DNA of 64,000 nt from Sergeia podlipaevii (lineage: Eukaryota > Euglenozoa > Kinetoplastea > Trypanosomatida > Trypanosomatidae), in contig JASANZ010002259.1 of the NCBI GenBank assembly GCA_030849805.1, positions 1 to 64,000 of the forward strand, in the 5' to 3' direction. The position numbers and the translations under genes were made by a program. This document shows, piece after piece, positions 102 through 59,406 of this stretch. Under the pieces are notes generated by a model that saw only the letters and a list, made by a program, of their open reading frames with translations, was not told the origin of the DNA and ran no database searches. How positions within the stretch are numbered: the first letter of the stretch is position 1; every line of letters begins with the position of its first letter.

Positions 102-682
102 GCAGCAGCAAAGGTGTGTGTATTATACACGCCCCCCACTGTTGTACTTTGATGAACTGCCTCTTCGTGCCTTGTCTTTCTTTTTTTTTCCTTTTCTGGA
201 ATGAACACTTTTTTTTGTCTGGGGATGGAAGGGCTGTCCAGCTGGGTTGATATAGAGAAGAGTAGGTTGGTTCGTTCAATTCATTGCCGAGTGAGTATCT
301 TTATTGATGTTTGGTTACAATCGTTATCGGCGCGAATGTATAACATATTCTTTCTTCTTTTCTTTTCTGTAGGCAGTGCTTTGACCTTGGATAACAAATG
401 GAAAAAATGCTTCTTGGTGCTTGTGAAATAGGGGAAACATATATACAGATGTAAGTTACTTTCTATTGTGGTATTACTACTTTTCTTTTTTTTTCTTCGT
501 TTTTTTTTCTAGGTCAATTTATTATTATTATTTATTTATGTGTTATATATATATTTATATATATTGGTTGTTGTTGTTTTTTTCATTTTCCAATGGAGTT
601 GATGGCAATGCAGTGTGATGTATACTATACTACTACTTCTACTATATGATGGAAGTCTGCCGTCATGCAAGTCGCTTTGACG

Positions 683-8443: not shown

Positions 8444-9331
8444 ATGGAGTATCGTCAGAAGTCGGCTCGACTTCCCCGTAGTGCGGAGGAGAAGGAAAAG
8501 TGGAAGCGGGTCATCATCATCCTCGCACACTGCCCCCTTCAGTCGATACAAACCGACAAAGGTTTCGAGCTGCTTAGCGAAAAGCATCGCAACTACCACG
8601 CCAAGTATAAGCAGGATCCTGCGGAGTGGCGTCCCGATGTAGTACATCAGTGTCTTCTGCACCTGCAGGACTCTGCCCTAAACCGCGCTGGCATGCTACA
8701 GGTGTTCCTTCAGACCAAGAAGGGCGTCTGCATCGCGGTGGACCCTCGCCTGCGTGTCCCTCGACACATGCGGCTCTTTGAAAAGATGATGGTGACACTA
8801 CTCTTCAAGATGAAGGTGCGCGCGAGCACGGGTTACTTGTCGCTACTGCGTGTCGTGCGCAACCCCATAACAGATCACATCCCCGCCAACACACGCCTCA
8901 TCCGCGTGGAGAAGGATGGCGACAAGGTAGACCCCTTTGAGTTCTGTGCCACGTGCGGGTACACACTTGACGAGCTGGAGCGCCGCACGGACGCGAAGCT
9001 GAAGCAAACCAAAAAGAACACTGCGGCAGAGTCTAGTGGCGCTGGTGCGAGCCGCGGCAACAGTAATGTAGAGGAGGAGGGCCCTGAAGCAGGCAGCCGC
9101 GCCTTCGCCGATGCCCAGCGCCGTGCAGCCGAGCAGAAGCAGTTCAAGCCTTTTGCATTCGTGGTTGGCGGTATGGCACGAGGCGACGTGGAGGCTGAAT
9201 ACGCTCCAAAGGGAGAGGTCACGAGTATTAGACTTGGAGACCGGGGTATGTCCGCCGCAGCGGTGGTCAGTACAATCCTGCACGGCTTTGAGGAGGAGTG
9301 GCTGCGTGAGGACAACGAGGCCACCCTCTAA
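8444..9331 (+). CDS. EMG1: Ribosomal RNA small subunit pseudouridine N1-methyltransferase EMG1/NEP1
   Basis: 295 residues from ATG 8444. The frame is open further upstream but has no ATG there. EMG1/NEP1 is a SPOUT-class methyltransferase that makes m1-pseudouridine in 18S rRNA and is required for 40S assembly in the nucleolus. Diagnostic segments are VIIILAHCPLQSI (23-35), LLHLQDSALNRAGMLQVFLQ (71-90), the RNA-binding RVPRHMRLFEKMM block (104-116), KVRASTGYLSLLRVVRNPITDHIP (124-147), the SAM-binding loop FVVGGMARGD (239-248) and the C-terminal GFEEEW (281-286). Between DHIP and the SAM loop lies an insertion of about 60 residues (about 165-235). It carries a CxxC (Cys168, Cys171) and an Ala/Glu/Lys-rich disordered stretch and is not present in yeast or human NEP1 as I remember them. 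The neighbours suggest no shared pathway. Confidence 0.93.
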   Translation: MEYRQKSARLPRSAEEKEKWKRVIIILAHCPLQSIQTDKGFELLSEKHRNYHAKYKQDPAEWRPDVVHQCLLHLQDSALNRAGMLQVFLQTKKGVCIAVDPRLRVPRHMRLFEKMMVTLLFKMKVRASTGYLSLLRVVRNPITDHIPANTRLIRVEKDGDKVDPFEFCATCGYTLDELERRTDAKLKQTKKNTAAESSGAGASRGNSNVEEEGPEAGSRAFADAQRRAAEQKQFKPFAFVVGGMARGDVEAEYAPKGEVTSIRLGDRGMSAAAVVSTILHGFEEEWLREDNEATL

Positions 9332-10576
9332 AATCGCACACACATATATATATATATCTTTGTGTGTAGAGGAGGGCATCAACTCTAAATCAAACGATTA
9401 AATTGTTAAGAAGGAGAGATTTCTCTGTATCCGCTTTAATTTGAAACTTAACTTAGCTCCTGCAAACAAAAAAAAAATGAGAGGGAACATATTTTCAAGT
9501 GTGTGTGTGTGTGTGCTCTCCGTTGTTCTTCTTGTTGTGGGTTGGATAGCGTTGTGTCGCAGCAAGTCCTCTTAGAGATAAAGAAACCGACCATATATGT
9601 ATGTGGTTGCTATTCACATTTCTCTTCATCTCCTTTTTCTTTCCTTTTTTTTTTCTTGTCAGTATAGGATTTTGCCTCGCCCTCGCGCAGTTTTTTTTTT
9701 GAGTATATATATATACATACGGGGTTGCGCGGTGCGTTCTTGTGGAAGGTAGTACTTACACTCGCAGCAAATACTTGCCCCTCTCCTTTTTTTTTTCTAC
9801 ACTTATAACAGCAATTATAGAGCATTTTTAAGCTACATATATTTAAGGAAAAAAGAAAAGCACACACACACACACACACATATAGTGGGGAGTATATTGG
9901 TATTATAGGGTTGTGCAGGAAGAGTGTTTATAGGATTGTACATTTATTTGTCTCACACTTTCTTGTTTCACATCATTACTACCAGAGCAAGCCATCAAAA
10001 GGTGAGACTACGTATTTTCTCTTTTTTCTTATATATATATATTATTTTTTGCTTCACTTTTTCTTGTTAACTTCTTTTTTTTTTTTTTCGAATAGTGCTA
10101 TTATTATTACTCCTTGCGAATATCTCTCTTTCGTTTTCCCTTTTTTATTTGTTCCGTGTGAGCGTACTTTTGTACGTTTTTCTTTTTTTTTGCATTTTCA
10201 TACCACTATCTGTGCTCTTCACTCCCGCCTTGGAAGGTCTGAACATCTCAGATTTTTTTAATCAATATATGCAAAAAGAAAAGGAACAAGATTTCTCTTC
10301 TTGTGTGTGTGTGTGTGTGATTTCCGTCTTCTTCATTTTTTGAAAGGCAAACGTATCAGCAAATAGGCAGCGAACGCAAACATACCAGAGAGAAAGAGAA
10401 CAGTGTGTTGCAATTTCTACCTGCGGGACGTGTGTGAGAGAGATAACCAAGCTATTCAAATATTAGTGTCCTCTCCTTCTGCAAAACCAACGAGGGAAAA
10501 CGAAAAAAAAAGCACGAGTTTGATTGAGAACGGAAGCGGGGAGGAAAAAAAACATTCACCCCAGCAGCGAAGTCCC
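9332..10576. other. Intergenic spacer with acceptor for the OTU gene
   Basis: AT-rich, with (TA)n, (GT)n (about 9498-9514 and 10302-10319) and (CA)n (about 9861-9880) microsatellites. Pyrimidine tract 10321-10340 ends in AG at 10345-10346. No ATG occurs between that AG and 10577, giving a 5' UTR of about 230 nt. An in-frame open stretch extends upstream of 10577 but contains only non-ATG codons. Confidence 0.55.
10345..10346 (+). promoter_or_regulatory. Predicted spliced-leader acceptor AG for the OTU gene
   Basis: Follows TTTCCGTCTTCTTCATTTTTTG. The first ATG after it is 10577, which fixes the N-terminus of the OTU protein. Confidence 0.5.
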
Positions 10577-13500
10577 ATGTTCAGTTCACAGGGCAAAGAT
10601 GATGATGTGGCAGCGACGCGCTTTCCATGTGATCTAGATCTATCGAAGCCATACAACCGCATGCGGGGCGGCGGTGGCGCTGAAAGTCTTCCAGCAGACG
10701 CGAAGGCGTCTAAAGGACGACACGGTGGTGGTGTTCCACAAAGTAGTATTAGTAGTGGTGGTAGTGGCGCTCCGGTTTCACGGCAACCAACTCAGCAGGC
10801 AAACCCGCAAGAATCCCCGCCTGCGCCTCGCGCGACGTTGACCATTTTCACCGAAATCGAAGATGGGAGCGGCGATGATGTGCGAGTAGATAGTGACGGG
10901 GCGATTGTACCCAATGCAGAGGGGCAGCACAGTGTGAGCCTTGATACGGGGAACAGCACCAGCGCGAGTTTTAGTAAGCACCTGCTCAAGCAAACCGCCA
11001 CCTGTCTTAGTCCTATGCACTACTACAATCTGTACGGCAACGGTCTTGCGCACACCGAGAGTGCGTACCGCGGCTTCGGCACAGCCAATAGCGTCAGTGA
11101 CTTTCTTTCCCCGGGCATGCCTGGTGCGAGCAGCAACAACTTGATGCATTTAGATGCCAGCAACAGCGGAGGGGCGGCGCCGTATTCTTCTACCTTGCCG
11201 GAGGACATGTCCTCCTTTAGCTTCGCAATGACCTGCGGCAACAGTGGCAGTGGCGAGGGCCCGCTGGTCTCCGCGACGCCTGTTGTGCCACTCACACCCT
11301 ACACGGGCGAAGGGCTACGCAAGAAGGCGGCTGCTGAGTTCGAGCGCAAGTTCAGCGCGGCGGCCGCGAAGGCGGCGGGGGAGGCCAAACTGGCGGCTGC
11401 ACAGGCGGCGGCGAGGGCAGAGGCGGAGAAGAGAGACCCCAAGGCAGAGAAGGAGCGCAAGAAGCGTGATAAGGAGAAGGCGAAGGAGCTCAAAAAGAAA
11501 CAGAAGGAAATAGCCTTAATACCGCCCAGGGTGGCCAGAGAGCAGATGATCCGCATTGGAGCGGAGAGGTTGCAGCAGCGCCTCAGTGAGCTGCATCTTG
11601 TAGGGCATAGAGTCAAGAATGATGGCAACTGTCAGTTCAGAGCCATTTCACAGCAGCTATTCGGCTCTGAGGAGTACCACGATCTTATTCGCAGCCATGT
11701 CGTGTCGTACATGCGGCGAGTGCGAGAGAAGCAGTTCGACTTTTTCTTTGAGAGCAAGGCGCATGCAGACACATACTTCGCGAACCTCGCCAAGATTGGC
11801 ACATGGGGAGATGAGCTCACGTTACGCGGTGCCAGCGACAGCCTCTTTCTCAACATTCACGTCCTGTCTTCTGAGGAACGCAACTGCTACATCACGTACC
11901 GGCCAAGTCCCGATGCCCCTCCCGCGCCATCGTTTCTGGTGGATGTGGCCAAAGTGCGTGAGCGGCGGCGCACAGAGCGGCAGTTCAAGCGCAGCCTGAA
12001 GCAACGCGCCACGGTGCAGGAGAGCGGATCACTGGAATTTCTCGACCCTGACTACTATTCTCACTCGTGTCCTGACCGCGTCCCCCACAGCGTGCATCAC
12101 GACTGCAACGCCGGGGTCGCCACTACTGTCGTCAGCAAGCACGAGGTGCCTAACGCGACCACTGCCCAACAGCAACTGCTGCACCACTCTGGTCCCATGA
12201 GCAACAGCGGGAGCGAGCGGGCTGGTGGACCTAAAGTGCAGAAGGGAGACGAGGAGTCAACTGACGACGACATCGACCTTGATGCCAGCGCGCTCCAGCA
12301 CGTGTTGCAGGAGAAGCTGGCCAAGGCGCGAATTCGTAGCTGTGCGCCGTACTTCATACCAGACGGATCGTACGTAGATACGTCTGCAGCGGCGCAGGGT
12401 GGGTCAAGCCGACCCTCCTTCAGTCACTGTGCTTCCTTTCCTGGCAACAGTACGAACTGGAGTGGGGCAGAGGAGCCGATGCCCAGCGCTGTGCCAATTG
12501 GTACCCCAGCGGCACACGCTGGCCGTAAGCCCCCACTTATCCAGCCACCCAGCACGATCAACACGCCACAGGTGGCCACTCTGAATGCATCAGATTCACT
12601 CAAGCATGGTCTCATCGCGGGTGACCTCAAGCTCTCTCCTACTCCTACTAGCGCACACAGAAGCATCGCTGTAGGCGCGCGCCACTCTTCTATTACGACG
12701 GCTCCACCCGCCTCATCCACACAGACGACAGCAGCGGCTGGAGCAGCAGCAGCAGCCGGGCCGCCTCTCAATTCGATCAGCATGGGCCACTTTAATGCCA
12801 GCAGCGGCAGTGGTAGCGGTGGTGGTAGCTACACCACCCCCGGCGCTACCAAGCGCTCCGCGGCGGTGTCCAAGTTTGTCGCTGCTGGGGCTGAAGTACA
12901 CACCACCACGGCGAATGAGTCCGTCACCATTTTCCGCCAGACATCGGAGCAGCAACCCCTGACGATCTTCACCGATGCTTCTCCCACTAATCCTACTATT
13001 ACTACTACTACTACTACTACAAAGGGAGGGATGGGCTCGGGAGACCCAGCAGGGGCCGGTGCAACGGCTGCATCACTGGGCAACAGTGCTGCTGGGACCT
13101 CTCCAGGAGCTGCGTCCTCCTCTGTAATTGCCACCCCCATGGCCCCACCTCCAGCACGGCTGCTGCGGCCCGTGTGCAGCAAGCGATCACACCCTCTCCA
13201 GAGCAGCGGTCCTTCAAACGACTCTGCCTTCCCCGTCTTCCCTACCCACGAGGGCGGCAATGTGATGCTGCTGGCGTCCAATCCGCGCAGCGCCACCATG
13301 AGCCTGAGGCAGTCCTTTGCCAATCTTAGCTCGGCCATGTCGCTTCCACAGGGCGGCTACAACAACTGTAACGCAGCCTTCTCGCAGGCAAGCGGCAGCT
13401 TTGACGGCGTGGGCGGTGGCGCTGGAGGAGAGCAAGGCGTCTGGGGAGACGGAGATGGCGAAGACGAAGAGGACGACGACGTGTGCTTCATATTTGAGAG

Positions 13501-13756
13501 CCGCTCAGAGCCCATTGATATTTTTCTGTCTTACTTGTATCCGGTGCACTACAACGCCCTCGCGGTCTATGACCCAGAGGATGCCACCTCAGACTCCCCT
13601 CCTATCGCCCCCGCCGTGACAGCAGGTGGTGGTGGTGCCGCCGCGGACAACAACACAACGACTTCGCTTGGCGGGCAGTACTTGAGTGCACCGTTTTTAC
13701 GTAAGTCGAATTCCATGTGCGAGGGGGCGTCGCGATCCCTTTCCTTCATGATGTGA
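10577..13756 (+). CDS. OTU-family cysteine protease (putative deubiquitinase) with large insertion in the catalytic domain
   Basis: 1059 residues from the first ATG after the acceptor at 10345-10346. OTU proteases cleave ubiquitin or ubiquitin-like linkages. Residues 1 to about 250 are low-complexity, followed by an Ala/Lys/Glu helix (about 255-315). The OTU core starts at about 332 (RLSELHLVGHRVKNDGNCQF) with Asp349 and catalytic Cys352, continuing with EYHDLIRSHVVSYM and IGTWGDELTLRGASD. The strand NCYITYRP ends near residue 447. The catalytic-His strand expected about 20 residues later is absent there. It appears near the C-terminus as LSYLYPVHYNALAVYD (His991, Asn993). About 520 residues of Ser/Ala/Gly/Thr-rich sequence (about 450-968) interrupt the domain. 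All catalytic residues are present, so the enzyme may be active if the insertion loops out. Plant-type OTU proteins are the closest match I recognise. Confidence 0.88.
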   Translation: MFSSQGKDDDVAATRFPCDLDLSKPYNRMRGGGGAESLPADAKASKGRHGGGVPQSSISSGGSGAPVSRQPTQQANPQESPPAPRATLTIFTEIEDGSGDDVRVDSDGAIVPNAEGQHSVSLDTGNSTSASFSKHLLKQTATCLSPMHYYNLYGNGLAHTESAYRGFGTANSVSDFLSPGMPGASSNNLMHLDASNSGGAAPYSSTLPEDMSSFSFAMTCGNSGSGEGPLVSATPVVPLTPYTGEGLRKKAAAEFERKFSAAAAKAAGEAKLAAAQAAARAEAEKRDPKAEKERKKRDKEKAKELKKKQKEIALIPPRVAREQMIRIGAERLQQRLSELHLVGHRVKNDGNCQFRAISQQLFGSEEYHDLIRSHVVSYMRRVREKQFDFFFESKAHADTYFANLAKIGTWGDELTLRGASDSLFLNIHVLSSEERNCYITYRPSPDAPPAPSFLVDVAKVRERRRTERQFKRSLKQRATVQESGSLEFLDPDYYSHSCPDRVPHSVHHDCNAGVATTVVSKHEVPNATTAQQQLLHHSGPMSNSGSERAGGPKVQKGDEESTDDDIDLDASALQHVLQEKLAKARIRSCAPYFIPDGSYVDTSAAAQGGSSRPSFSHCASFPGNSTNWSGAEEPMPSAVPIGTPAAHAGRKPPLIQPPSTINTPQVATLNASDSLKHGLIAGDLKLSPTPTSAHRSIAVGARHSSITTAPPASSTQTTAAAGAAAAAGPPLNSISMGHFNASSGSGSGGGSYTTPGATKRSAAVSKFVAAGAEVHTTTANESVTIFRQTSEQQPLTIFTDASPTNPTITTTTTTTKGGMGSGDPAGAGATAASLGNSAAGTSPGAASSSVIATPMAPPPARLLRPVCSKRSHPLQSSGPSNDSAFPVFPTHEGGNVMLLASNPRSATMSLRQSFANLSSAMSLPQGGYNNCNAAFSQASGSFDGVGGGAGGEQGVWGDGDGEDEEDDDVCFIFESRSEPIDIFLSYLYPVHYNALAVYDPEDATSDSPPIAPAVTAGGGGAAADNNTTTSLGGQYLSAPFLRKSNSMCEGASRSLSFMM

Positions 13757-14953
13757 TAGAAACAGAGAGGGAGAGAGAGAGAGAGCAGAGAGCAGAGAAG
13801 GATGACGTCGTATATCACTTCGATGAGGAAGTTGCTTGGTGCGTGGGACTTGAGAAAGCGGTGCTTGGGGCACTTTTTTTTTTTTCCAATATAGATAAAT
13901 GGGATTTACTACTGTCATTAGTATGGCACCACTGTACATTGTTGTATGCTTATGTAATTATTTTCCTTCTTCATTAGCATCAAAATTGAAATACCAGACA
14001 TGGCGAGAGAGGTGGGGGAAAGAGGAAAAAGAGAGAGGCGCGTGGGGTGATAGCTTTTTGCGTTGCAGGTGGGGATGGGTAATATATATATGTATGGCTG
14101 AGTAGATATATATTTTATTTATCAGATAAAGAGAGTAAGAGAGAGGGAGAGACAAAGGAACATGGCAAAATTGTGGTATTATGTGCCACATTCTTTCATG
14201 GCAATATATAGCGAGGTATATATATGTTTGTCGTTGGTGGTAGTGGTGATGGTGTAGTTCTACATTGCTATTAGTCACATATATATATATATTTATTTTG
14301 TGCCTGTTCTTGTGTTTCCCCTTCCTTTCAAAAGAAAGAAGTTCACCAGCAGAATACTTCGACTGACTCTCTAAAATAAATGTGTCTCTTCGTGTGTGTG
14401 TCCGCATCTAAGTGTGTCTGTATGTATGTATGTATGCTCTCCTGTAAATCATCATGTCTCTCAGCTGCGCACATATGTAGTGTTTAACAAACTGCTGTTT
14501 TTTTTTATTATTTGCTTCTTGTGAGTGTGTGCTGTTGTTCTTCGCGATTGCTTCCCTCTTTTTACTAGTGGTGTGTTCCAACACCTTCTACATTTTTTTT
14601 TTGTCGAATGCTCTCTCACCTTTCCTTTTTCTTTTTCAAAACACAAATAATAATAGTAATAATATTTACTAAAAACAAAATAAAACAAAATGAAAAGGGG
14701 GAAAAGAAGGAAGAAGGAGTGGTGTGGTATTAACCAGTGTACAGTGTGAATAAAAATATAAGCGCAGAAAATGATTGTGCTTTTTTTTTTGCTATTGCTG
14801 TTGTTGTTGTTCTTGTTGTTGTATTTTTGTTGTTTTTTTCCTTTTGCGTGCGTTTCTGTTGTTGCTGTTGATTCTCTTTTACTACCACTACTACTACCAT
14901 AGCTTATATGAATGACCGTATATATATATTTATTTTCCTTCTTTTTTTTTTTT

Positions 14954-14989
14954 NNNNNNNNNNNNNNNNNNNNNNNNNNNNNNNNNNNN
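14954..14989. other. Assembly gap (36 N) inside a poly-T tract
   Basis: Thirty-six Ns flanked by at least 12 T on the left and 12 T on the right. The true length of the homopolymer or of any missing sequence is unknown. Confidence 0.98.
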
Positions 14990-15458
14990 TTTTTTTTTTT
15001 TCTTAACCGCGTATGAGCGCGCGGGTTTACTCTTTCTTTCTGCTCTCTATCTATACATATGGTCTTGGTCATTGTTGTTGTTGCATTTCCTTTTCTTTTC
15101 CTTTTTTTTTCCTTTTTTTTTTGCCGTCACTGCTGCGTTGCTCATGCCCGCGTGTACTAGACAATAATCAATGCTTTGTAATGGAAAAAAAAAGGCAGAG
15201 ATGAAGTAGAGAAGGAGGTGGTGCGGGGGAGGGGATGGGAGGTGTGGATATAATGGCAAAGTGTCGTGCTGGGTAGTTGCAGGCATTCCCTTTTTCTCAC
15301 CACTCATTTTTTTATTATTATTATTTATTTGCTTTCTCTCATTTTGATATCACCGCGTTGATAATCCTCCAATTGCTACTATTACTATTTTTGTCCCTTT
15401 CCCCTCCCCCCCTTCATTGTAGAAAGGCATCAAAGGTTGCAAAAGAAGACTCTCTCTG

Positions 15459-19501: not shown

Positions 19502-21289
19502 ATGATGATATTTTTGTGGGTTTTGGCCATTGCGGGAACTATCCCGGTCTTCAAGTACGCCTCCTTCCTAGGGCTTGTGATCTATATGGTTGCTGTCTGC
19601 GGTCTTCGTAACGCCTGGTGCAGCGCTTTTATGCGTGCTGGACCACGGACATCCCGCCAGGTGCCTCCGCAGCCGATCGCGTACTGCCAGCAGCTCTCTG
19701 CGCAGCAGCTCAGTCGCGCCTACCGCGAAGGCACTCTCTCTGTGGTGGAAGTGGTGGAGACCTTTATCAGTCACATCAAGCGCGTCAATCCGTACACCAA
19801 CGCCATGGTGTTCGAGTGCTTTGATGAAGCCATGGAGGCGGCCAAGAAGGCGGACGAGATCTGGGCGGCCTGGCGCAAGGATCCCAGTCAGCCTGCCCCC
19901 AGCTGGCTTTTAGGTGTGCCCTGCACCATCAAGGAATGCATGGAGTGCATCGGCTGTCCAAACACGTCTGGCCACCCGTTCCGCAAAGGTGTCATTTCTG
20001 CCGTGGACAGCCCCGTCGTACATAACTTTCGTGAGGCCGGGGCGGTCATTCTTGGTGTCACAAACACCAGCGAGCTCTGCATGTGGTACGAGAGTTCCAA
20101 CTACATCTACGGCATCACCTGCAACCCGTACGACACCCGCTGCCTCGTCGGTGGCAGCAGCGGCGGCGAGGGCTCAGCCGCAGGCGCGGTCTTCTCCACC
20201 TTCAGCCTAGGCAGTGATATCGGTGGGTCCATCCGCATGCCGGCCTTCTTCAATGGTGTGTATGGCCACAAGGCAAGCCCCCACTACATCTCCAACCGTG
20301 GCCAGCATCCCGGTGCCAAGAGCACAGCGAATCACTACATGTCCACGGGCCCCATCACAAGGTTCCCTGAGGATATCATCCCACTCTCCAAGGTGGCCGC
20401 GCGCGGCGGGTTTCAGCAGGACCCTATCACCTTCCCTCCATGCAATCCTCTTGACAAGGTGCTTGACCTCAAAAAGAAGCCAATGCGTGTGTATGCACTT
20501 GAGGACTTGGGCGTTCCGTTCATCTACCCCTCCCAGAGCGAAATCGATGCGGTCCACACCGCCGCAGAGGCCCTCCGTGAGCACGTTGGTGCGCAGGTGA
20601 TATATGTTAATGTACGTAATGCGTCGCGCTGCACGGGTGGCACCGTACCTGACGTCTTCAAACCATTTTCACAGGTGCTCTCCATGTGGTCCTCTGTTCT
20701 GACGAAGGACCCCACCGAGACGAAGTTCAGTACTCTAATGGCTGAGGGCCATAATCCACCTAGAGTGAACTGGATTGCTGAGGCCGCTCGCTGGACTGTC
20801 GGTCGCTCCCAGCACACCCTCCCCGCTATCGCACTCAGCGTGCTCGAGACGATGGAGCTGGTGCTGCCTAGCTGGATGACAGTCAGCAAGGACGGCATTG
20901 CGGTGCCGTTCAAGGCTAGTCTTGAGGAGCTGCTTTCAGATAACGCGGTCATCATCACCCCTACCTTCCCTAGCCCTGCCCCGAGGCATCACCACGTGCT
21001 GTGGAATCCTTTTCAGTTCCAATACACTGCTGCCTTCAACGTACTGCAGCTGCCTGCAACAGCGTGCCCAATTTGGACGGCTGACATGCGCGACGAGTAC
21101 AAGGCGGCGACCCCATCCGAGATGCGTGCCAAGCACCTACCAAACGACTATCACCTTCCCAAGGGTGTTCAGATTGTTTCCGCTACTCACAGCGATGAGC
21201 TGTGCGTGAGCACGGCTATTGCCTTGAGGGACATTCTCGGTGGCTACCGCTACCCTGGCTGGGCAATGCTCGAGGGGAAGGATTACTAG
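19502..21289 (+). CDS. FAAH: Fatty-acid amide hydrolase, amidase-signature family, membrane-anchored
   Basis: 595 residues. FAAH enzymes hydrolyse fatty-acid amides and N-acylethanolamines at membranes. An N-terminal hydrophobic segment (about 1-40) is a probable membrane anchor, as in animal FAAH. The amidase-signature Ser-cisSer-Lys triad is complete: Lys144 in CTIKECM, Ser219 in VGGSSGGEG and nucleophile Ser243 in SDIGGSIRMP. The spacings (75 and 24 residues) equal those of rat FAAH (Lys142, Ser217, Ser241). The gene starts with two adjacent ATGs (19502 and 19505), and either gives essentially the same protein. The specific substrate cannot be read from the sequence. Other amidase-signature enzymes such as GatA are less likely because of the N-terminal anchor and FAAH-like blocks (DSPVVHNFREAGAVILGVTN). 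Confidence 0.9.
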   Translation: MMIFLWVLAIAGTIPVFKYASFLGLVIYMVAVCGLRNAWCSAFMRAGPRTSRQVPPQPIAYCQQLSAQQLSRAYREGTLSVVEVVETFISHIKRVNPYTNAMVFECFDEAMEAAKKADEIWAAWRKDPSQPAPSWLLGVPCTIKECMECIGCPNTSGHPFRKGVISAVDSPVVHNFREAGAVILGVTNTSELCMWYESSNYIYGITCNPYDTRCLVGGSSGGEGSAAGAVFSTFSLGSDIGGSIRMPAFFNGVYGHKASPHYISNRGQHPGAKSTANHYMSTGPITRFPEDIIPLSKVAARGGFQQDPITFPPCNPLDKVLDLKKKPMRVYALEDLGVPFIYPSQSEIDAVHTAAEALREHVGAQVIYVNVRNASRCTGGTVPDVFKPFSQVLSMWSSVLTKDPTETKFSTLMAEGHNPPRVNWIAEAARWTVGRSQHTLPAIALSVLETMELVLPSWMTVSKDGIAVPFKASLEELLSDNAVIITPTFPSPAPRHHHVLWNPFQFQYTAAFNVLQLPATACPIWTADMRDEYKAATPSEMRAKHLPNDYHLPKGVQIVSATHSDELCVSTAIALRDILGGYRYPGWAMLEGKDY

Positions 21290-23744: not shown

Positions 23745-26700
23745 ATGTCTCTAATTACGGCCTTTCCGTTTCAGGCCTTTGTAGGCGACCTGAAGACGCG
23801 TAAGCTCATGGAAGAGAAGACTGGTGTCTCGCTTTCTGTGCTCACCTCAGAGGACATGTCACGGATTTCTTTTGTAGAAGTGCGCACGCGGTGTGGGCAG
23901 GAAGATAAGGCATCCCCATGGCTTCCTGTTATCAGAAAAGGCGAGTCTTTTGCCACCTTCTACGACACCCGCATGGGCAACTTTGACGTACGTACGTTCC
24001 CCTCTCAGCCATGCTCCACATGCACCACGGCGCAGACCGGCAAGCTCGGCAATGAGCGCTGCAGCGGCCACTTTGGCTATATCAGCATGCCTCGTCGCTA
24101 CCCGAACGACCCCGCACGTGCCATGGAGCGCGTCTTTGTGATCAATCCACATCTTGCCGAGGAGACCGAGCAGCTGCTGCAGGCGGAGTGCTTTTTTTGT
24201 CATGGATTTCGTGTGCCAGAGTTTGACGTGCAGCGGTACCTGCAGGCGCTGCGGCTGATGGATGCAGGCCTCATTGGTGAGTCCCTGCACTTCCTCGATG
24301 TGGTAGCGAACTCACGCGGTCAGGCGATGCGGAATAAGCAGAGGCGAGACGGTAACGAAGAGACATTTACGGATGTGCGCATCATGACTGAGCATGTGGA
24401 CCGCATTCTCCGGGAGAAGGCACCAGCATTCGTCAGCTCCTCTGAAGCACGAGTGGCAGCGGCGGCGAGCAGTAGTAGTAGTGGTACTCACAGCGGCCAC
24501 TTCTCCCATGCAGACGAAAGCGATGAGCAGAGGCACCTCAAGACGAAGCCCGCGACGGACTTGCGGAACCAGATCTGCAAGCAGGCCCTGCGTGAGTTCA
24601 AGGAGCACGGCAACGTGTGTACGCACTGCCAGGGCATCTCTCCTCGCATTACGACCAAGAACGGTCATCTGTTTTTCTACTTTAACAAGAAAAACGCGGA
24701 CTTCAACGTTGCCAACGGCCTGCTCACCCAGTCACAACTGCGCAAGTGGGAGGAGGTCAGCCGGAGCCACAACCGCACCCACTGCTACTTTCAGACGTCT
24801 TATGTGCGCGAGCACATCAAGGCGCTCTGCCAGAAGGAAGCCCCCATCTTAGGTGCCATTTTTCCTCACATGGGCGAGTCCACTCTTGTCATGCCCTACG
24901 CGTGCCCTCTGCCTCCCAACCTCCTCTATAAGGTGTTCTTCATTGACAAGCTGCTGGTACCCCCGCTCTCACTGCGGCTTTCATCGGGCGTGCAGGTGAA
25001 CGAGTCTGGGGTCATCACTCCCGATGATCAAACTCGCGGTCTGTCTGGAGTGCTCGATTTCGTGGAAGAAATCGAAACGTACTACATTCTCAAGAACAAC
25101 TCCACGCCCGAACGCAATCTCGTCACCCAAGCTCAGAAGATCGCTCACGAGCACAACTTGCGCAACCTACAAGCCAAGGTGACCGAGGTGTACACCGATA
25201 TCCTCGAGAGCTTTGCCAAGAAGGAGGGTCTGTTCCGCATGCATATGATGGGAAAGCGTGTGAACCAGGCCTGCCGTAGCGTGATATCTCCCGACTACCT
25301 TGTGGAGCCTAACGAAGTGCTGCTCCCCCGTCCCTTTGCCCGCTCTCTCACATATCCTGAGCAGGTCGGTAGCTTCAGTCCTGCCCGGACGTTGCTACTC
25401 AAGCGGTGCGTTATCAACGGCCCCTTTACCTACCCTGGCGCCACCCACTTGGAGGTGCGCATGGCGAGCGGTGAGGTGCGCTTTGTCGACCTCAACACTC
25501 CCGAGCAGACCCGAAGACAGCACGCTGTGAAGTACTTTGCGCTTGCTCAGACCGGCACGCTGATTGTGCACCGCCATATTCTGGATGGCGACCGACTGAT
25601 CTTTAATCGCCAGCCCACGCTGCACAGGGCGTCCATGATGGGCTACCGCGCCAAGGTTCTCTCTGGCCTCAAGACGCTCCGCTTTCACTATATCAATGGT
25701 AAGTCGTATAATGCCGACTTCGATGGCGATGAGATGAACATTCACGTCCCGCAGAGCATCGAGGCGAAGGCCGAGCTAGAGTGCCTCATGGACGCCAACC
25801 TTAACTACCTCGTACCCACCTCTGGAAAGCCAATTCGCGGTCTCATTCAGGATCACATTGTTGCCGGTGTGCTGCTGACGTTACGCGACAAGTTTCTTGA
25901 CCGCGACACCTTTGTACAGTACATGTACAACGCTGTCTTCCCGTACATGAGGCTTCACGGCAGCCACCTCGTCGCCCACGTGACGCTGACGGACCTCATC
26001 CCTGTCCCTGCCATCCTTCTCCCGCGTGCGTTGTGGACTGGCAAGCAGCTCATCTCCATTATTGTGCGCTACGTCACTGGCGCCGTGTGCGGTAGCAACA
26101 GCAGCAGCAGCAGTGGTAAGAAGGCCGCAGTCATGAAGACTGTGAGCGACGGTGTGAGTCTCGCGGGTACTTCTCTGGTGCAGCCCAGTGCGTACACCAC
26201 GACAGACCCGCGTACTGGAGAGCTGGTGACGGTGCGCAGAGACGCCATGGATGACGATCGTGTTCTCTTTCTCAATAGTGAGCTGCTTACCGGTGTGCTC
26301 TGCAAGAACCAACTTGGCCCCGCCGGTCTCTCCGTCGCCCACGTTATTCACGAGATCTTCGGCCCACACATGGTCTCTCAGTTGTTTGGTGCATTCGGTC
26401 GTGTGCTCACGCTCTCGCTGCAGCGGGAGGGCTTCTCCATGGGTATGGACGATATGTGCCTTGTCGCGGAGGATCGCAGGGCACAGCTGCTCCGTGAGCT
26501 GGACAACGCTCCGCTGAAGCTTGACCAAGACGAAGCCGTGGTGATGCCCGCCATCATGACTCTCGCGACGCAGCTCCAGAAGGAATTCGTGCCCGGCCGC
26601 ATGCTCGTGCCCTTCCCGCGCAATCAGCTCCTCATGATGACCATGTCAGGCGCGAAGGGTAGCAACACAAATGCAATTCAGATGGCACTGGGGCTCGGCC

Positions 26701-29087
26701 AGCAGCTCTTCGACGGTCGTCGTGTACGCCAGATGAACTCTGGCAAGACCCTTCCTGCCTTCTTTATTGGCGAGAAGCGCGCGCGTTCTTTTGGTTACGC
26801 CATTGGCCGCTTTGCGTCGGGAATCCGACCACCGGAGTACACCATCCACGCCATGGCTGGTCGTGATGGCCTGATTGACACTGCTGTCAAGACGTCGCGC
26901 TCAGGGCACTTGCAGCGCTGCCTCATTAAAGGTATGGAGAGCCTTGTCGTACACTGGGACCACTCCGTGCGCGATGCCAACGGTAGCGTGATCCAGTTTC
27001 TCTACGGCGGTGACGGACTCGACCCGATGAAGGCCTCCACGCTGCAGTCATGGGAGATGGTGAAGGAGAACACATTCGAGCTCGGCCGCAAGTACGGCGT
27101 GGACACCGGCGCTGACGCTCAGGAGCAGGGTCAGGAAATCGAAGAAGGCGCAACGGCCGCAGGTAGCAAGCGTCAGAGGCGCGATGAGGCCGCCGAAGAG
27201 GCTGCCGCGCTCCAGTCGGCGATGGCAGATGCGGAGGTGGTTCGTGACCCACTGCCCCCACACCTGCGCAACAGCATTCATACCTACGTCAACTCTCGAG
27301 CCCAGTTCCCGCTCTTCAAGAAGGTCTCACAGGTGGCGCGCTGGACTCACCAGGGCGTCGTCACGCAGAAGCTGCGCGAGAAGCGGCAGGAGAACGTCGA
27401 CTACTACGGTGCCGTGATTGAGGACATCACAGCGCACAAGCGCGTGCGCGCATACTGTGACGCTGGTGAGCCTGTGGGACTTCTAGCGGCGCAGGCTGCT
27501 GGCGAGCCTTCGACGCAGATGACCCTGAACACATTCCACAGCGCGGGCTCCACTGTGACTCACGTGACTGAGGGCATTCCACGTCTGCGTGAGTTGCTTA
27601 TTCACGCCTCCGTGCAGAAGGGGGCAGTTATTGTACCGGTGGAGAAGGCGAAGGCCGTGGACGAAAGCGCCATCAGCCGTATCCTTGGCGCTGGCGTGGT
27701 GGCGAAGCTCTCTGACTGCCTTGCGCGTGGTGGTAGTAATGGACGCGGCCTGCTGCACAAGGGATACCACTTTCATATCGAGCGCGGTGTGGAGGGCGGT
27801 CAGTTGACGGTGTCGCTGCTCTTCTCGCGTAAGCTGCTGGAGCGCAAGTGTAAGGACATGTGCATGACTCCTAGCGAGCATCTTGTGTCCTTCACGGGTG
27901 CGCTCAAGGCACTCGCGAAACGTGTCGTGACTTCTCTTAGCGGTCGCACACGCGAGAAGGAAGATGGCGCCGCGGCCTCTGGTCTGATCAATGGATCCGT
28001 GCAGGACCCTAGCCAACTCGATGACGGTTTCGCGGATGACGATGGCATCAGTGTGCTCAAGGAGGACGAGGACGACGACGACCGCTCTACCCAGGCTTCA
28101 ACGCCTGCGTTTGCTGCCATGAAGAATGGCGCCTCTGTGCCTGCACTGAAGGACCTCGACGACGATGACGACGAGGGCGATATGCTGGACGAAGAAGGGG
28201 AGGAGTCTGCCGCTGCCGCTGGGAAGTCTTCCCGCAAGCGCCGTGGTGACTCTGACGACGACGGTGATGCCTCCTCAGCAGACGATGACGAGCTTGTGTT
28301 TGCTGCGGAGCTGAACAGCAAATTGACGTACGACACGTTCACCCCGATCAACGCCGCCTTTGCAAACAAGAAGTACGTCGTTGACATTGGCCCACTTGGC
28401 AAGGCACAGGTGAAGCAACTGCAGCTGCCGGAGGATCTCTTTATTGTCAACGTGTGCATCTCCGTTCCACAGCACGTGGTAGCTGTTACACCCGATGTAC
28501 TCGACAAGGCCCTTGATGAGCAGGCCTTTACGTCGTGGCTGCCGCAGTTTGAGTCCGTGAGCTTTACCAGAAGCGCTGATGACACGAGCAGTGGTGAGCT
28601 CGTCTTTCAAGGCCCTGCTGCCACTACGCGCAACGTGATGGCGTTCCTCTCACTCTTTACACTTCGCGCAAAGGCTATCAAGGTGCACAAGGCTCGCTCT
28701 ACAGATATTCAGCAGATGTGTTACTCCTTCGGTGTGGAGAGCGGCTACAAGGCTCTCTTTGACGAACTCTTCAAGCTCTTCAGACGCTACGCGGTAGATT
28801 ATCATCACCTCACCTTGATCGCCGACGCTGCCACGCACCGCGGGAGGTGGGAAAACTTCAACTCCACTGGTGTCATCTCACAAAGCGCCAGTCCACTATT
28901 CCAGATGACCTTTGCGTCTTCCAAGCGCTTCCTTCATACTGCCCTCACCCGTGGTATCGGCGACGAGCTGAACTCCATCAGCTCTGCTATCATGGTAGGT
29001 GAGCGACCGCGCGTGGGTACGGCGTGTGTGAAGGTGTGTCAGGACCCTGTCATTTTACGCGACATTGTGGAGAGAAACATTGCGTAG
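23745..29087 (+). CDS. RPA1: DNA-directed RNA polymerase I largest subunit (A190 homologue)
   Basis: 1780 residues from ATG 23745; the frame is open upstream, but only from a TTG. This is the catalytic largest subunit of Pol I, which transcribes rRNA in the nucleolus (and VSG/procyclin genes in African trypanosomes). The clamp zinc motif is CSTC...CSGHF (Cys90, Cys93, Cys106, His109). A second metal-binding set is ECFFCHGF plus VCTHCQG. The active-site loop NADFDGDEMN places the catalytic Mg2+ on Asp658, Asp660 and Asp662. The trigger-loop region is PVGLLAAQAAGEPSTQMTLN (about 1241-1260). Two features point to Pol I rather than Pol II or III: there is no heptad CTD, and the jaw carries an acidic insert (about 1438-1518, runs of Asp/Glu). 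Other insertions are Ser-rich (about 236-250 and 785-795). Confidence 0.95.
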   Translation: MSLITAFPFQAFVGDLKTRKLMEEKTGVSLSVLTSEDMSRISFVEVRTRCGQEDKASPWLPVIRKGESFATFYDTRMGNFDVRTFPSQPCSTCTTAQTGKLGNERCSGHFGYISMPRRYPNDPARAMERVFVINPHLAEETEQLLQAECFFCHGFRVPEFDVQRYLQALRLMDAGLIGESLHFLDVVANSRGQAMRNKQRRDGNEETFTDVRIMTEHVDRILREKAPAFVSSSEARVAAAASSSSSGTHSGHFSHADESDEQRHLKTKPATDLRNQICKQALREFKEHGNVCTHCQGISPRITTKNGHLFFYFNKKNADFNVANGLLTQSQLRKWEEVSRSHNRTHCYFQTSYVREHIKALCQKEAPILGAIFPHMGESTLVMPYACPLPPNLLYKVFFIDKLLVPPLSLRLSSGVQVNESGVITPDDQTRGLSGVLDFVEEIETYYILKNNSTPERNLVTQAQKIAHEHNLRNLQAKVTEVYTDILESFAKKEGLFRMHMMGKRVNQACRSVISPDYLVEPNEVLLPRPFARSLTYPEQVGSFSPARTLLLKRCVINGPFTYPGATHLEVRMASGEVRFVDLNTPEQTRRQHAVKYFALAQTGTLIVHRHILDGDRLIFNRQPTLHRASMMGYRAKVLSGLKTLRFHYINGKSYNADFDGDEMNIHVPQSIEAKAELECLMDANLNYLVPTSGKPIRGLIQDHIVAGVLLTLRDKFLDRDTFVQYMYNAVFPYMRLHGSHLVAHVTLTDLIPVPAILLPRALWTGKQLISIIVRYVTGAVCGSNSSSSSGKKAAVMKTVSDGVSLAGTSLVQPSAYTTTDPRTGELVTVRRDAMDDDRVLFLNSELLTGVLCKNQLGPAGLSVAHVIHEIFGPHMVSQLFGAFGRVLTLSLQREGFSMGMDDMCLVAEDRRAQLLRELDNAPLKLDQDEAVVMPAIMTLATQLQKEFVPGRMLVPFPRNQLLMMTMSGAKGSNTNAIQMALGLGQQLFDGRRVRQMNSGKTLPAFFIGEKRARSFGYAIGRFASGIRPPEYTIHAMAGRDGLIDTAVKTSRSGHLQRCLIKGMESLVVHWDHSVRDANGSVIQFLYGGDGLDPMKASTLQSWEMVKENTFELGRKYGVDTGADAQEQGQEIEEGATAAGSKRQRRDEAAEEAAALQSAMADAEVVRDPLPPHLRNSIHTYVNSRAQFPLFKKVSQVARWTHQGVVTQKLREKRQENVDYYGAVIEDITAHKRVRAYCDAGEPVGLLAAQAAGEPSTQMTLNTFHSAGSTVTHVTEGIPRLRELLIHASVQKGAVIVPVEKAKAVDESAISRILGAGVVAKLSDCLARGGSNGRGLLHKGYHFHIERGVEGGQLTVSLLFSRKLLERKCKDMCMTPSEHLVSFTGALKALAKRVVTSLSGRTREKEDGAAASGLINGSVQDPSQLDDGFADDDGISVLKEDEDDDDRSTQASTPAFAAMKNGASVPALKDLDDDDDEGDMLDEEGEESAAAAGKSSRKRRGDSDDDGDASSADDDELVFAAELNSKLTYDTFTPINAAFANKKYVVDIGPLGKAQVKQLQLPEDLFIVNVCISVPQHVVAVTPDVLDKALDEQAFTSWLPQFESVSFTRSADDTSSGELVFQGPAATTRNVMAFLSLFTLRAKAIKVHKARSTDIQQMCYSFGVESGYKALFDELFKLFRRYAVDYHHLTLIADAATHRGRWENFNSTGVISQSASPLFQMTFASSKRFLHTALTRGIGDELNSISSAIMVGERPRVGTACVKVCQDPVILRDIVERNIA

Positions 29088-56988: not shown

Positions 56989-59406
56989 ATGATGCGCGAA
57001 GCTAAGGAGAGCTGCACCACCACCATCGCTGCCAGCAGCAGCAGTAGAGAGCCACGCTACGTAGATGTTGATGCGGTGCCCATAGAAGAAGAAGAAGAGA
57101 TGCGTTACGTAGACATGGAGGAGTCCCTGAAGCGAAGTAGCGACATAAAAATAAAAGTGGGTCCTCAGAGAGAAACGCATGCTATGATGGAAAGACGAAG
57201 AGGGAGAGAGCCGGCTTCGGTAACGTCACTCCCCGCGCAAGTAGCGTCCACGTGCATACACAGCAGCGACATGGTAGATGGCAGAAAGGACAAGGATGAT
57301 ATGAACTCGACATTTTCAGAGCGGGTGCCACCTGAAGAGGCGGCAGCAGCAGTAGGGGCGGCACTTCCAAAAGGGAGCCTTAATATTGAGCCTTTACCGC
57401 CCTCCTCATCATCGCCGCCTTCACTTGCTGAAAGGCGAACCCCTGTCAATGCAGAGGCTCGTATCCGCGCATACGAAGCCGCTTATGTGCCCGAGGCGGA
57501 AGTTGTCTACCAACACGTGCTCGGTGTCATCAACCCCGCCTCTGGGGAGCGAGCAGCCTCCACCGTTGTGCGTCGTACCATGTTGAGTGAGCTGGGGGCG
57601 GCACATGTGGTGATCCTTGCTGGACCACTATTCGCAGACCCAAGGCCGCTCCGTCAAGCCATCAAGGAACAAGCGGTGATTTATCGAAGGGAGAAGCTCT
57701 ATAGCAGCGATACAAGCGGAGGAGGCGGTGATGGTGTCACTGCTACAACTATTGCAATTGGTAGTGGTACGTCAGGCAGCACGCGCAGGGGCGGCGCGTC
57801 ACGGCGCTCAGAGCCACCAACAAGGGGTACAGTGATCGTTTCTGGCGGAGACGGGACGGTGGAGTTCGTGATGCATCAAATCGATCTTGTTAGAGCAGAG
57901 CTTGAGAGCGAGCTGGGTCTCGGCGGCGGTGGTAACACTGGTAGCCATCACTATAAGGACAAGGAGAGCAACACCGACGACGATGGCGGTGTGCTCGCCA
58001 ACGAAGCCGCAGAAGATGACAGTTGCTTCGTCGTCCCTGCAGTGGCGCCGCTTCCACTCGGCACCGGAAATGATTTCTCACGTTGCATGGGCTTTGGCAG
58101 AGGCTTCACACCCTACACAAGCGGCTCAATTGGCTCCCTCTGCCGCTGCCTCTCGTGCTGTTGCGGTGAGAGGGCTGTGGCCCCGTTGCTGAGGGAAGCC
58201 GCTGAGTCTCCTTGCGTGCGGTTCGACCGCTGGAACGTCTCCATGGTGCCGCTGCACGTGGCTCAGAGACACCTGAAGTCCTATCCGGCACCGGCAGCTG
58301 CTACATGCTCTTCTAGAGAAGAAAAGAGAGGAGAATCCCTTGCGGCCACTCATCATCATAATCGTCATCATCATTTTGATGATGGTGATGACAATGCTGA
58401 CGGTAAAGCCAACCCCGCCGCTCCTGCTGCAAGTGCGCAGCAGCGACCGGTTGAGCCGTTCTTTGCGAACACGATCTACCACGTGGACTGGGAGGCCATC
58501 TATGCTGCAGGGGCCTGTACTACCCGTTCCGTTATGAACTATCTTGGCATTGGCTTCGACGCTTATGTGGCATGCAAGTTTGATGAGACACGTAAAAGCT
58601 ACCCCGCGCTGTGTAGCAACCGTACTCAGAACAAGGCCATGTATGGCGTGATGGCGATCAAGGGTGCGATGAAGATACAGAGGATACGCAAGTTGATTCC
58701 GATGATCTGCGCGCCAAGTCCGTGGCCTATCAGTGCCACGACATCATCTGACGGTGCTGGTGGGTCAAGTGTGGTGAGACCGCCTACTACGACCATGTTC
58801 AGCGAAGGGAAACCACTCATGGTCCCGCTGCAGCTCCCCACATCCAGCAAGGCACTCGCTGTCACGAACGTCAACTCATACGCTGGGGGCCGCCCCTGGA
58901 CTGCGCTGCGCTCCGGGCTGTATTACCGTCCTGTTGACATCGTGCCGGGCAGCCCTGTCTTGGCCAAGTCGGCGACTGCGTACAAGCCCCCTATTGTTAC
59001 CCCCGTTGCGATTAACGATCGCAAGTTTGAAGTTCAGGCGATGGGGGGCATGTTGCACTACGGCACGCTTGGAATGGGCATCACCAGTACCATCAAGATG
59101 GCGCAGATGAGCGAGATGTTCGTCTTTGTCCTCTGCACTCCGCAAGACTTGACGTGTGAGGTCGGGCAATGCTCCGCTTTCACTCGAGAGTCACTCAAGA
59201 GGCGAGAGGAAGGTCTCCCCACAAACGCTAGTGCACGTGCGACGTTGTCCGTTCAAATTGATGGTGAGGCACTGCCTAGGATTGCAGAAGCTACTATCCT
59301 CCATGTACGGCCCATACTCAGCGAGAGAGTGTACGTGCGATGCAGAAACCCGGATGTGGTGCGGCAGTCCGCACTTGATGAACATGTCCATGTCATTATC
59401 CGATGA
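56989..59406 (+). CDS. Diacylglycerol-kinase-family lipid kinase, 805 aa
   Basis: Diacylglycerol kinases phosphorylate diacylglycerol to phosphatidic acid. The catalytic domain begins near residue 180 (VLGVINPASGERAAS). It has the glycine-rich nucleotide loop SGGDGTVEF (GGDG at 286-289) and PLGTGNDFSRCMGFG (356-370). The accessory domain follows from about 505: NYLGIGFDAYVACKFDETRK, LAVTNVNSYAGGRPW, and a C-terminal SVQIDGEALPR, the typical D-G-E strand. Low-complexity insertions occur between these blocks (about 245-280, 308-345 and 440-485). The first about 150 residues are charged and disordered. No C1 domain, EF hand or membrane segment is visible, so regulation differs from animal type I DGKs. 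Ceramide or sphingosine kinase is less likely given the full DGK accessory domain. Two adjacent ATGs begin the ORF. Confidence 0.88.
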   Translation: MMREAKESCTTTIAASSSSREPRYVDVDAVPIEEEEEMRYVDMEESLKRSSDIKIKVGPQRETHAMMERRRGREPASVTSLPAQVASTCIHSSDMVDGRKDKDDMNSTFSERVPPEEAAAAVGAALPKGSLNIEPLPPSSSSPPSLAERRTPVNAEARIRAYEAAYVPEAEVVYQHVLGVINPASGERAASTVVRRTMLSELGAAHVVILAGPLFADPRPLRQAIKEQAVIYRREKLYSSDTSGGGGDGVTATTIAIGSGTSGSTRRGGASRRSEPPTRGTVIVSGGDGTVEFVMHQIDLVRAELESELGLGGGGNTGSHHYKDKESNTDDDGGVLANEAAEDDSCFVVPAVAPLPLGTGNDFSRCMGFGRGFTPYTSGSIGSLCRCLSCCCGERAVAPLLREAAESPCVRFDRWNVSMVPLHVAQRHLKSYPAPAAATCSSREEKRGESLAATHHHNRHHHFDDGDDNADGKANPAAPAASAQQRPVEPFFANTIYHVDWEAIYAAGACTTRSVMNYLGIGFDAYVACKFDETRKSYPALCSNRTQNKAMYGVMAIKGAMKIQRIRKLIPMICAPSPWPISATTSSDGAGGSSVVRPPTTTMFSEGKPLMVPLQLPTSSKALAVTNVNSYAGGRPWTALRSGLYYRPVDIVPGSPVLAKSATAYKPPIVTPVAINDRKFEVQAMGGMLHYGTLGMGITSTIKMAQMSEMFVFVLCTPQDLTCEVGQCSAFTRESLKRREEGLPTNASARATLSVQIDGEALPRIAEATILHVRPILSERVYVRCRNPDVVRQSALDEHVHVIIR

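Follow-up and report, generated by a model that had tools for sequence, protein, structure and literature searches.

Can the catalytic Cys and His of an OTU-type deubiquitinase serve a single active site when 639 residues of chain separate them? This question is raised by a gene of the trypanosomatid Sergeia podlipaevii (10577..13756, plus strand; 1059 codons without a stop, 1059 aa), located within a 64,000-nucleotide stretch of contig JASANZ010002259.1 (hereafter the window), for which a first-pass annotation had proposed an OTU protease split by a long insertion. The OTU domain is indeed split, the split is conserved among relatives with its catalytic motifs intact, and the insertion contains conserved islands. 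With a probability of roughly 0.6, we favor the explanation that this protein is a working OTU deubiquitinase whose core closes from two distant stretches and which carries a lineage-wide tethered arm, kept since a common ancestor, with islands serving in docking or regulation.

The first part of the OTU domain comprises residues 319–443 (11531..11905), as delimited by Pfam, alignment and model. It contains the catalytic motif DGNC (residues 349–352; 11621..11632) with Cys352, followed by IGTWGDELTLRGASD (residues 407–421) and NCYITYRP (residues 436–443). The second part, residues 971–1000 (13487..13576), was placed by alignment, model and a strand profile, and includes IDIFLSYLYPVHYN (residues 980–993), in which His991 (codon 13547–13549) begins the triplet HYN (residues 991–993). 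The positions of these elements and the Cys352–His991 spacing, all read correctly in the first-pass annotation, were confirmed on the open reading frame. OTU (PF02338) is the sole Pfam family matched in this protein (47.4 bits against a cut-off of 23.3), a search that included no dedicated test for a UBX-like N-terminus. The match spans profile positions 2–92 of 128 (residues 348–435) and ends ahead of the insertion; with 91 of 128 positions covered, inventories may call the enzyme partial. The otubain family Peptidase_C65 (PF10275) matches 8 of the 26 aligned proteins described below, weakly (E up to 1, best 0.013), and the window's protein is not among them. The split enzyme is probably catalytically competent.

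The reading frame of the insertion bears the marks of coding sequence. It has no in-frame stops, versus 7–35 in each of the five other frames, and its third-position GC is 0.64, compared with 0.62–0.68 in the remainder of the gene; the gene flanks have 0.36–0.37 GC overall. Our own scan for pyrimidine-rich tracts located eight upstream of the gene (9332–10576) and one within it; runs made up of pyrimidines alone stay shorter than 12 throughout the insertion.

Is the split a peculiarity of this genome? A search with residues 310–470 recovered 28 proteins among 685 candidates. The window's protein and the first 25 relatives (17 carrying the names of trypanosomatid genera and 8 lacking an organism name) were aligned as 26 rows; the remaining three proteins (P0027–P0029) are distant. 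All 26 rows combine DGNCQF with a far HYN, at a spacing of 421–639 residues (median 515.5), and D349, G350, N351, C352, H991, Y992 and N993 are invariant. Since every row of this orthologue alignment, which the first-pass annotation had called for, has the insertion, it is not peculiar to S. podlipaevii. Compact OTU proteins were taken from an OTU-core search (best 120 of 295 shorter proteins), and a further search added P0150 among the matches listed. The His strand was located in 115 of 122 compact rows, at a spacing of 106–195 (median 119). A spacing of 639 lies outside this range and outside the compact OTU domain of the OTU1/YOD1 type, making the present enzyme a split variant. Smaller expansions before the His strand occur in the non-trypanosomatid proteins P0081, P0092 and P0027 (spacing 160, 174 and 195).

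A tree built from 89 OTU cores, although based on few columns, separates the 27 trypanosomatid rows from the others by a branch with support 100/98. These include P0030 from Angomonas deanei, annotated at 346 aa, in which the first OTU part is matched and the HYN strand is absent; it looks like an incomplete gene model, a reading that is unproven. Given this branch and the presence of the insertion in all 26 aligned rows, the insertion is at least as old as the ancestor of the trypanosomatids sampled. No bodonids or other relatives that could date it further were recognized by name among the matches listed in three protein searches, which were bounded by sequence length and number of candidates (best 120 of 295 in the core search). 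The loop thus looks like a lasting, possibly functional feature and not an oddity of one genome.

We then asked which strand supplies the catalytic His. A profile was constructed from 10 columns of residues before PVH in the 115 compact rows, with the His itself excluded. The far His strand (979–988, PIDIFLSYLY in the window's protein) ranks first by this profile in 26 of 26 rows. A different conserved His directly after NCYITYRP, raised in the first-pass annotation as one observation that would speak against a split domain, was sought and rejected: among the 26 rows, His is present in at most 6 at any position of residues 444–520 and in no more than 13 in any column of residues 444–970. The earlier estimate of about 520 inserted residues holds when the spacing is set against the median of the compact rows (639 minus 119), whereas the stretch without an OTU counterpart, set by alignment and profile, is about residues 444–970 (11906..13486), and within it the segment 444–466 is itself conserved.

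Two AlphaFold2 models were examined, one of the window's protein (P0001) and one of the Trypanosoma conorhini orthologue (P0025, 25-row alignment); their alignments share 25 rows, and the models are not independent. The P0001 model places the His strand within the OTU fold match, so that a single OTU fold including this strand is predicted from the two stretches. For the window's protein, this model and the strand profile support the earlier proposal of an insertion looping out of an OTU fold that stays intact, but the P0025 model differs. The arm joins where the His strand starts (residue 980, with His991 following 11 residues later), which points to an exit at the end of the sheet away from the active site; by this topology, catalysis need not be disturbed.

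What, then, does the insertion contain? It is of low complexity, with most of it predicted to be disordered in the P0001 model (predicted local distance difference test score, pLDDT, below 50). The segments that stand out by conservation score are residues 444–466, 565–589, 766–774, 895–901 and 911–916. The first island (M1, 444–466; 11906..11974) is continuous with the OTU part and contains FLVDV (453–457). The second (M2, 565–589; 12269..12343), recognized by conservation, motif and model, consists of a predicted helix, LQxxLQxKL, followed by a short strand. The third (M3, 766–786; 12872..12934) carries KFVAAGAE and predicted strands at 772–777 and 780–786, and the fourth (M4, 895–901; 13259..13279) reads NVMLLAS. 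The helix motif, written Q..[LV][QH]..L, is present in 26 of 26 rows versus 77 of 5200 shuffled insertions, and the GA[EKH] motif of M3 (FxAxGAE) in 23 of 26 versus 6 of 5200. A pattern like NVMLLAS is present in 19 of 26 rows; the shuffle controls covered the other two motifs. When windows were scored over 13 of the 26 rows, the best two scores (2.51 and 2.26) exceeded all 60 shuffles. Apart from OTU (26 rows) and Peptidase_C65 (8 rows), Pfam returned eight families over the 26 proteins, in 1–2 rows each and all weak, and no known domain was recognized in the insertion. A ubiquitin-interacting motif was considered for the helix island and dropped, as the alanine and serine of the consensus are not kept when compared by eye.

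Two conserved islands precede the OTU domain. LTIFTE (88–93; 10838..10855) falls in a predicted strand (88–94), and ATPVVP (233–238; 11273..11290) accompanies a predicted strand (230–236) that is followed by a helix (245–283). A near-identical LTIFTD is encoded within the insertion of the window's protein (12959–12976); LTIFTE has counterparts in most orthologues, and by eye LTIFTD has none in the alignment. At the NVMLLAS island (positions 13222–13267), a tract rich in pyrimidines is followed by an AG at 13252 and by an ATG in frame at 13265. This could be an internal splice acceptor yielding a short C-terminal product, an idea that is otherwise unsupported.

Under the explanation that we favor, residues ~319–443 and 971–1000 would combine in a single ordinary OTU core that cuts ubiquitin and is kin to compact OTUs with the motifs WGDELTLRA...HYN. 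An arm of ~290–500 residues, disordered for the most part, would have taken the place of the turn between the last strands of the sheet no later than the common ancestor of the sampled trypanosomatids, and would have been retained since. The islands, namely the amphipathic-looking helix LQxxLQxKL and the short strand-forming pieces, may recruit partners or substrates to the enzyme or provide it with internal switches; most likely they would bind partners or fold back for regulation. We infer their role as tethered docking or regulatory motifs by analogy with the insertions of some USP-type deubiquitinases. The regulatory or substrate-recruiting arm envisaged in the first-pass annotation is thus possible and favored by the conserved islands, short of a demonstration.

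Several observations weigh against this explanation. Confidence in both models is low overall (mean pLDDT 43.7 and 43.9, predicted template modeling score 0.36 and 0.28, for P0001 and P0025, respectively), and AlphaFold2's recall of the OTU fold may account for the predicted core. In the P0025 model, a strand other than the His strand occupies the place of the latter, and the His strand is mostly unplaced (block means of 42, 35 and 35 at residues 761–790). Its OTU match covers 341..464 in the best row, and only 5 of 50 rows end at 776–779, the others ending earlier. Most of the insertion is unconserved, with a mean conservation of 0.35 for residues 460–968 versus 3.67 for residues 330–443. The M3 pattern is absent from 3 of 26 rows (P0005, P0021 and P0026), and the M4 pattern from 7 of 26, including 5 of the 7 Trypanosoma rows. 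The third and fourth window scores (1.78 and 1.77) are below the highest shuffle (2.13), and shuffle controls overstate significance because the rows are related.

The main rival to a tethered arm is neutral expansion, in which codon-repeat slippage, in lineages where such sequence abounds, lengthened a length-tolerant turn into an arm without a job, the islands being remnants or weak contacts. We regard this as unlikely, though deserving serious consideration. The Ser/Ala/Gly/Thr-rich character noted in the first pass is borne out (Ser, Ala, Gly, Thr and Pro make up 54% of the window's insertion and 42–54% over the 26 rows), and lengths drift from 287 to 504 residues, with helix-to-GAE linkers of 49–192. 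The same place in the fold also varies in non-trypanosomatid relatives, with spacings up to 174 and 195, and in Toxoplasma OTUs the sheet carries insertions of 38 and 52 residues that are disordered (PMC10038098). A neighboring gene for a diacylglycerol kinase-like protein likewise has stretched Pfam matches. Neutral drift, however, is harder to reconcile with an arm that has been lost in 0 of 26 rows, with a helix motif kept in every row, and with a GAE island that follows the helix in 23 of the 23 rows that have both.

A doubtful alternative is that the islands at residues 88–94, 230–283, 570–589 and 772–786 form a second small alpha/beta domain threaded around the OTU core. The elements that the two models place at the islands agree in kind: in P0001 and P0025, respectively, strands at 88–94 and 95–101 and at 230–236 and 123–129, helices at 245–283 and 137–151 and at 570–583 and 548–561, a strand at 585–589 and 564–568, and strand pairs at 772–786 and 646–660. 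Block pLDDT is about 40–69 at the islands and about 28–40 in the linkers. Against such a domain, island confidence stays under 70, the two models draw on largely the same rows, P0024 (likely an N-truncated model) is without the N-terminal islands, and three rows do not have the M3 pattern. In addition, the fold comparison listed OTU matches only and none outside the OTU part, although other parts of the chain were barely tested by it.

The conservation of FLVDV suggests a further alternative, in which this His-less strand acts as a decoy, competing for one position in the sheet with the true His strand that follows ~520 residues later, and partners bound at the islands set the enzyme on or off. 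Pro451 is invariant and Phe453, Leu454 and Asp456 nearly so, making the segment nearly as conserved as the enzyme. Phe453 lies 101 residues after the Cys (99–105 over the rows), at a distance where compact OTUs carry the His strand (corresponding Phe at 98–187, median 111). By strand-profile score, FLVDV falls within the top 0.6% of windows at the median of the rows and ranks 2–10 in 17 of 26. Finally, FLVDV forms a strand (455–459) inside the OTU match ending at 464 in the P0025 model, whereas in P0001 it lies within a helix (452–481) and the His strand is in the match. This difference could simply reflect low confidence and sequence closeness, however. The true His strand outranks FLVDV in every row, FLVDV does not reach the top ten in 9 of 26 rows, and in P0023 the segment differs and ranks 748 of 929. 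We consider a decoy strand decidedly unlikely.

Proteolytic maturation, also suggested in the first pass, would mean cleavage of the loop, with the two halves of the protein remaining associated. It has precedents in the autocleavage of USP1, in which the mutated G670/G671 lie between catalytic H592 and D751 (PMC6238601), and in the tolerance of the OTU fold for chain permutation (PMC7396840). Among the 26 insertions, however, LxGG occurs in 4 and RGG in 7, and no diglycine-type site is shared (sites for other proteases were not sought), leaving this proposal unsupported and very improbable. An intron, misjoined genes or an assembly error, suggested by the pyrimidine-rich tract followed by AG within the gene (13222–13252), is contradicted by an open frame and coding composition maintained throughout an insertion devoid of long pure pyrimidine runs, and by the same layout in 25 other proteins.

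Other features of the proteins and the locus were recorded. In the 23.4 Mb genome, a protein search gave at least one match, the gene itself (six candidates scored), and no arm-less paralogue was present among the matches listed. A Pfam OTU search added at least one compact gene (L002; Cys–His spacing 103), which resembles the OTU1/YOD1 type. Six of the seven Trypanosoma orthologues (P0018, P0019, P0021, P0022, P0025 and P0026) start with MG[AGN]C, which looks like an N-myristoylation and palmitoylation signal, whereas the window's protein has a different start and an internal MRGGG. The insertions of P0021 and P0026 contain 16–17% Lys+Arg, versus 6–11% in the other 24 rows, in clusters that resemble a nuclear signal. 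On the same strand as the OTU gene, the window encodes an EMG1/NEP1 methyltransferase (8444–9331), an amidase (19502–21289) and the largest subunit of RNA polymerase (23745–29087). The diacylglycerol kinase-like protein mentioned above (56989–59406) is perhaps also loop-expanded, and a minus-strand reading frame at 14461–15072 contains unread residues (X), which suggest that the assembly has a stretch of unread bases there.

Provided that the fold closes in the modeled way, no longer insertion in an OTU catalytic domain was encountered in these searches, and the trypanosomatids sampled share it. Nature would here have set up an experiment on how far catalytic residues can be separated by a disordered arm, and on whether the enzyme makes use of that arm. 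If the arm does prove to be regulatory and specific to this lineage, it would also provide a handle on ubiquitin control in trypanosomatids.

Within open-licence PMC papers, we found no functional study of this protein and recognized no description of its insertion. LINF_160019700 is listed as an 'OTU-like cysteine protease' (PMC11520807), and five Toxoplasma OTUs have a T. cruzi OTU protein as their best match in the AlphaFold database (PMC10038098); either may or may not be the present orthologue. L. infantum has 4 OTU genes (PMC9552668), Leishmania OTU1 has been described (PMC7403338), and a treatment of the Leishmania C12, C19 and C65 peptidases refers to C85 as characterized elsewhere (PMC7319358). 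The available part of PMC7647121 makes no mention of 'OTU', those of PMC6107107 and PMC10133868 hold nothing further on this protein, and PMC4372256 gave no match to the terms sought in it.

Comparison with known systems places the split in context. The nearest plant enzymes are, we assume, Arabidopsis OTU9–OTU12. In vitro, OTU9 and OTU10 cleave chains and OTU11 and OTU12 are silent (PMC3950621). Trypanosomatid orthologues (Leishmania, Leptomonas, Novymonas and Trypanosoma; annotated as 'OTU-like cysteine protease' or hypothetical) likewise have a split OTU domain, with the helix island in all and most other islands in most, but with a spacing of 421–622. Compact relatives (Eimeria, Symbiodinium 'OTU11', Prymnesium, Tetradesmus and many unnamed) share the DGNCQF-like Cys motif, WGDELTL and SYISP[VI]HYN-like motifs but are without such an arm, and human OTUD3, OTUD1 and OTUD5/DUBA (4bou, 4bop and 3tmp; 20–26% identity) were solved as chains of 141–154 residues without such an insertion. 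Catalytic domains split by insertions are also known in USP1, USP25, USP28 and USP11, with roles in oligomerization, stability and autoinhibition (PMC6238601, PMC6509359, PMC12718135), although these USP-type enzymes differ from OTU in family and fold. USP1, with catalytic C90 and H592 at a spacing of 502, carries two large insertions, and their contribution to specificity is called unclear (PMC6238601); the insertions of USP25 and USP28 drive oligomerization, and an autoinhibitory motif in USP25 blocks ubiquitin binding (PMC6509359). Within the OTU fold itself, a parallel is provided by the disordered insertions seen with AlphaFold in Toxoplasma OTU deubiquitinases, for which the available text mentions no conserved islands. 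Those of 38 and 52 residues are already in print (PMC10038098), and what seems new here is a giant OTU insertion shared across a lineage.
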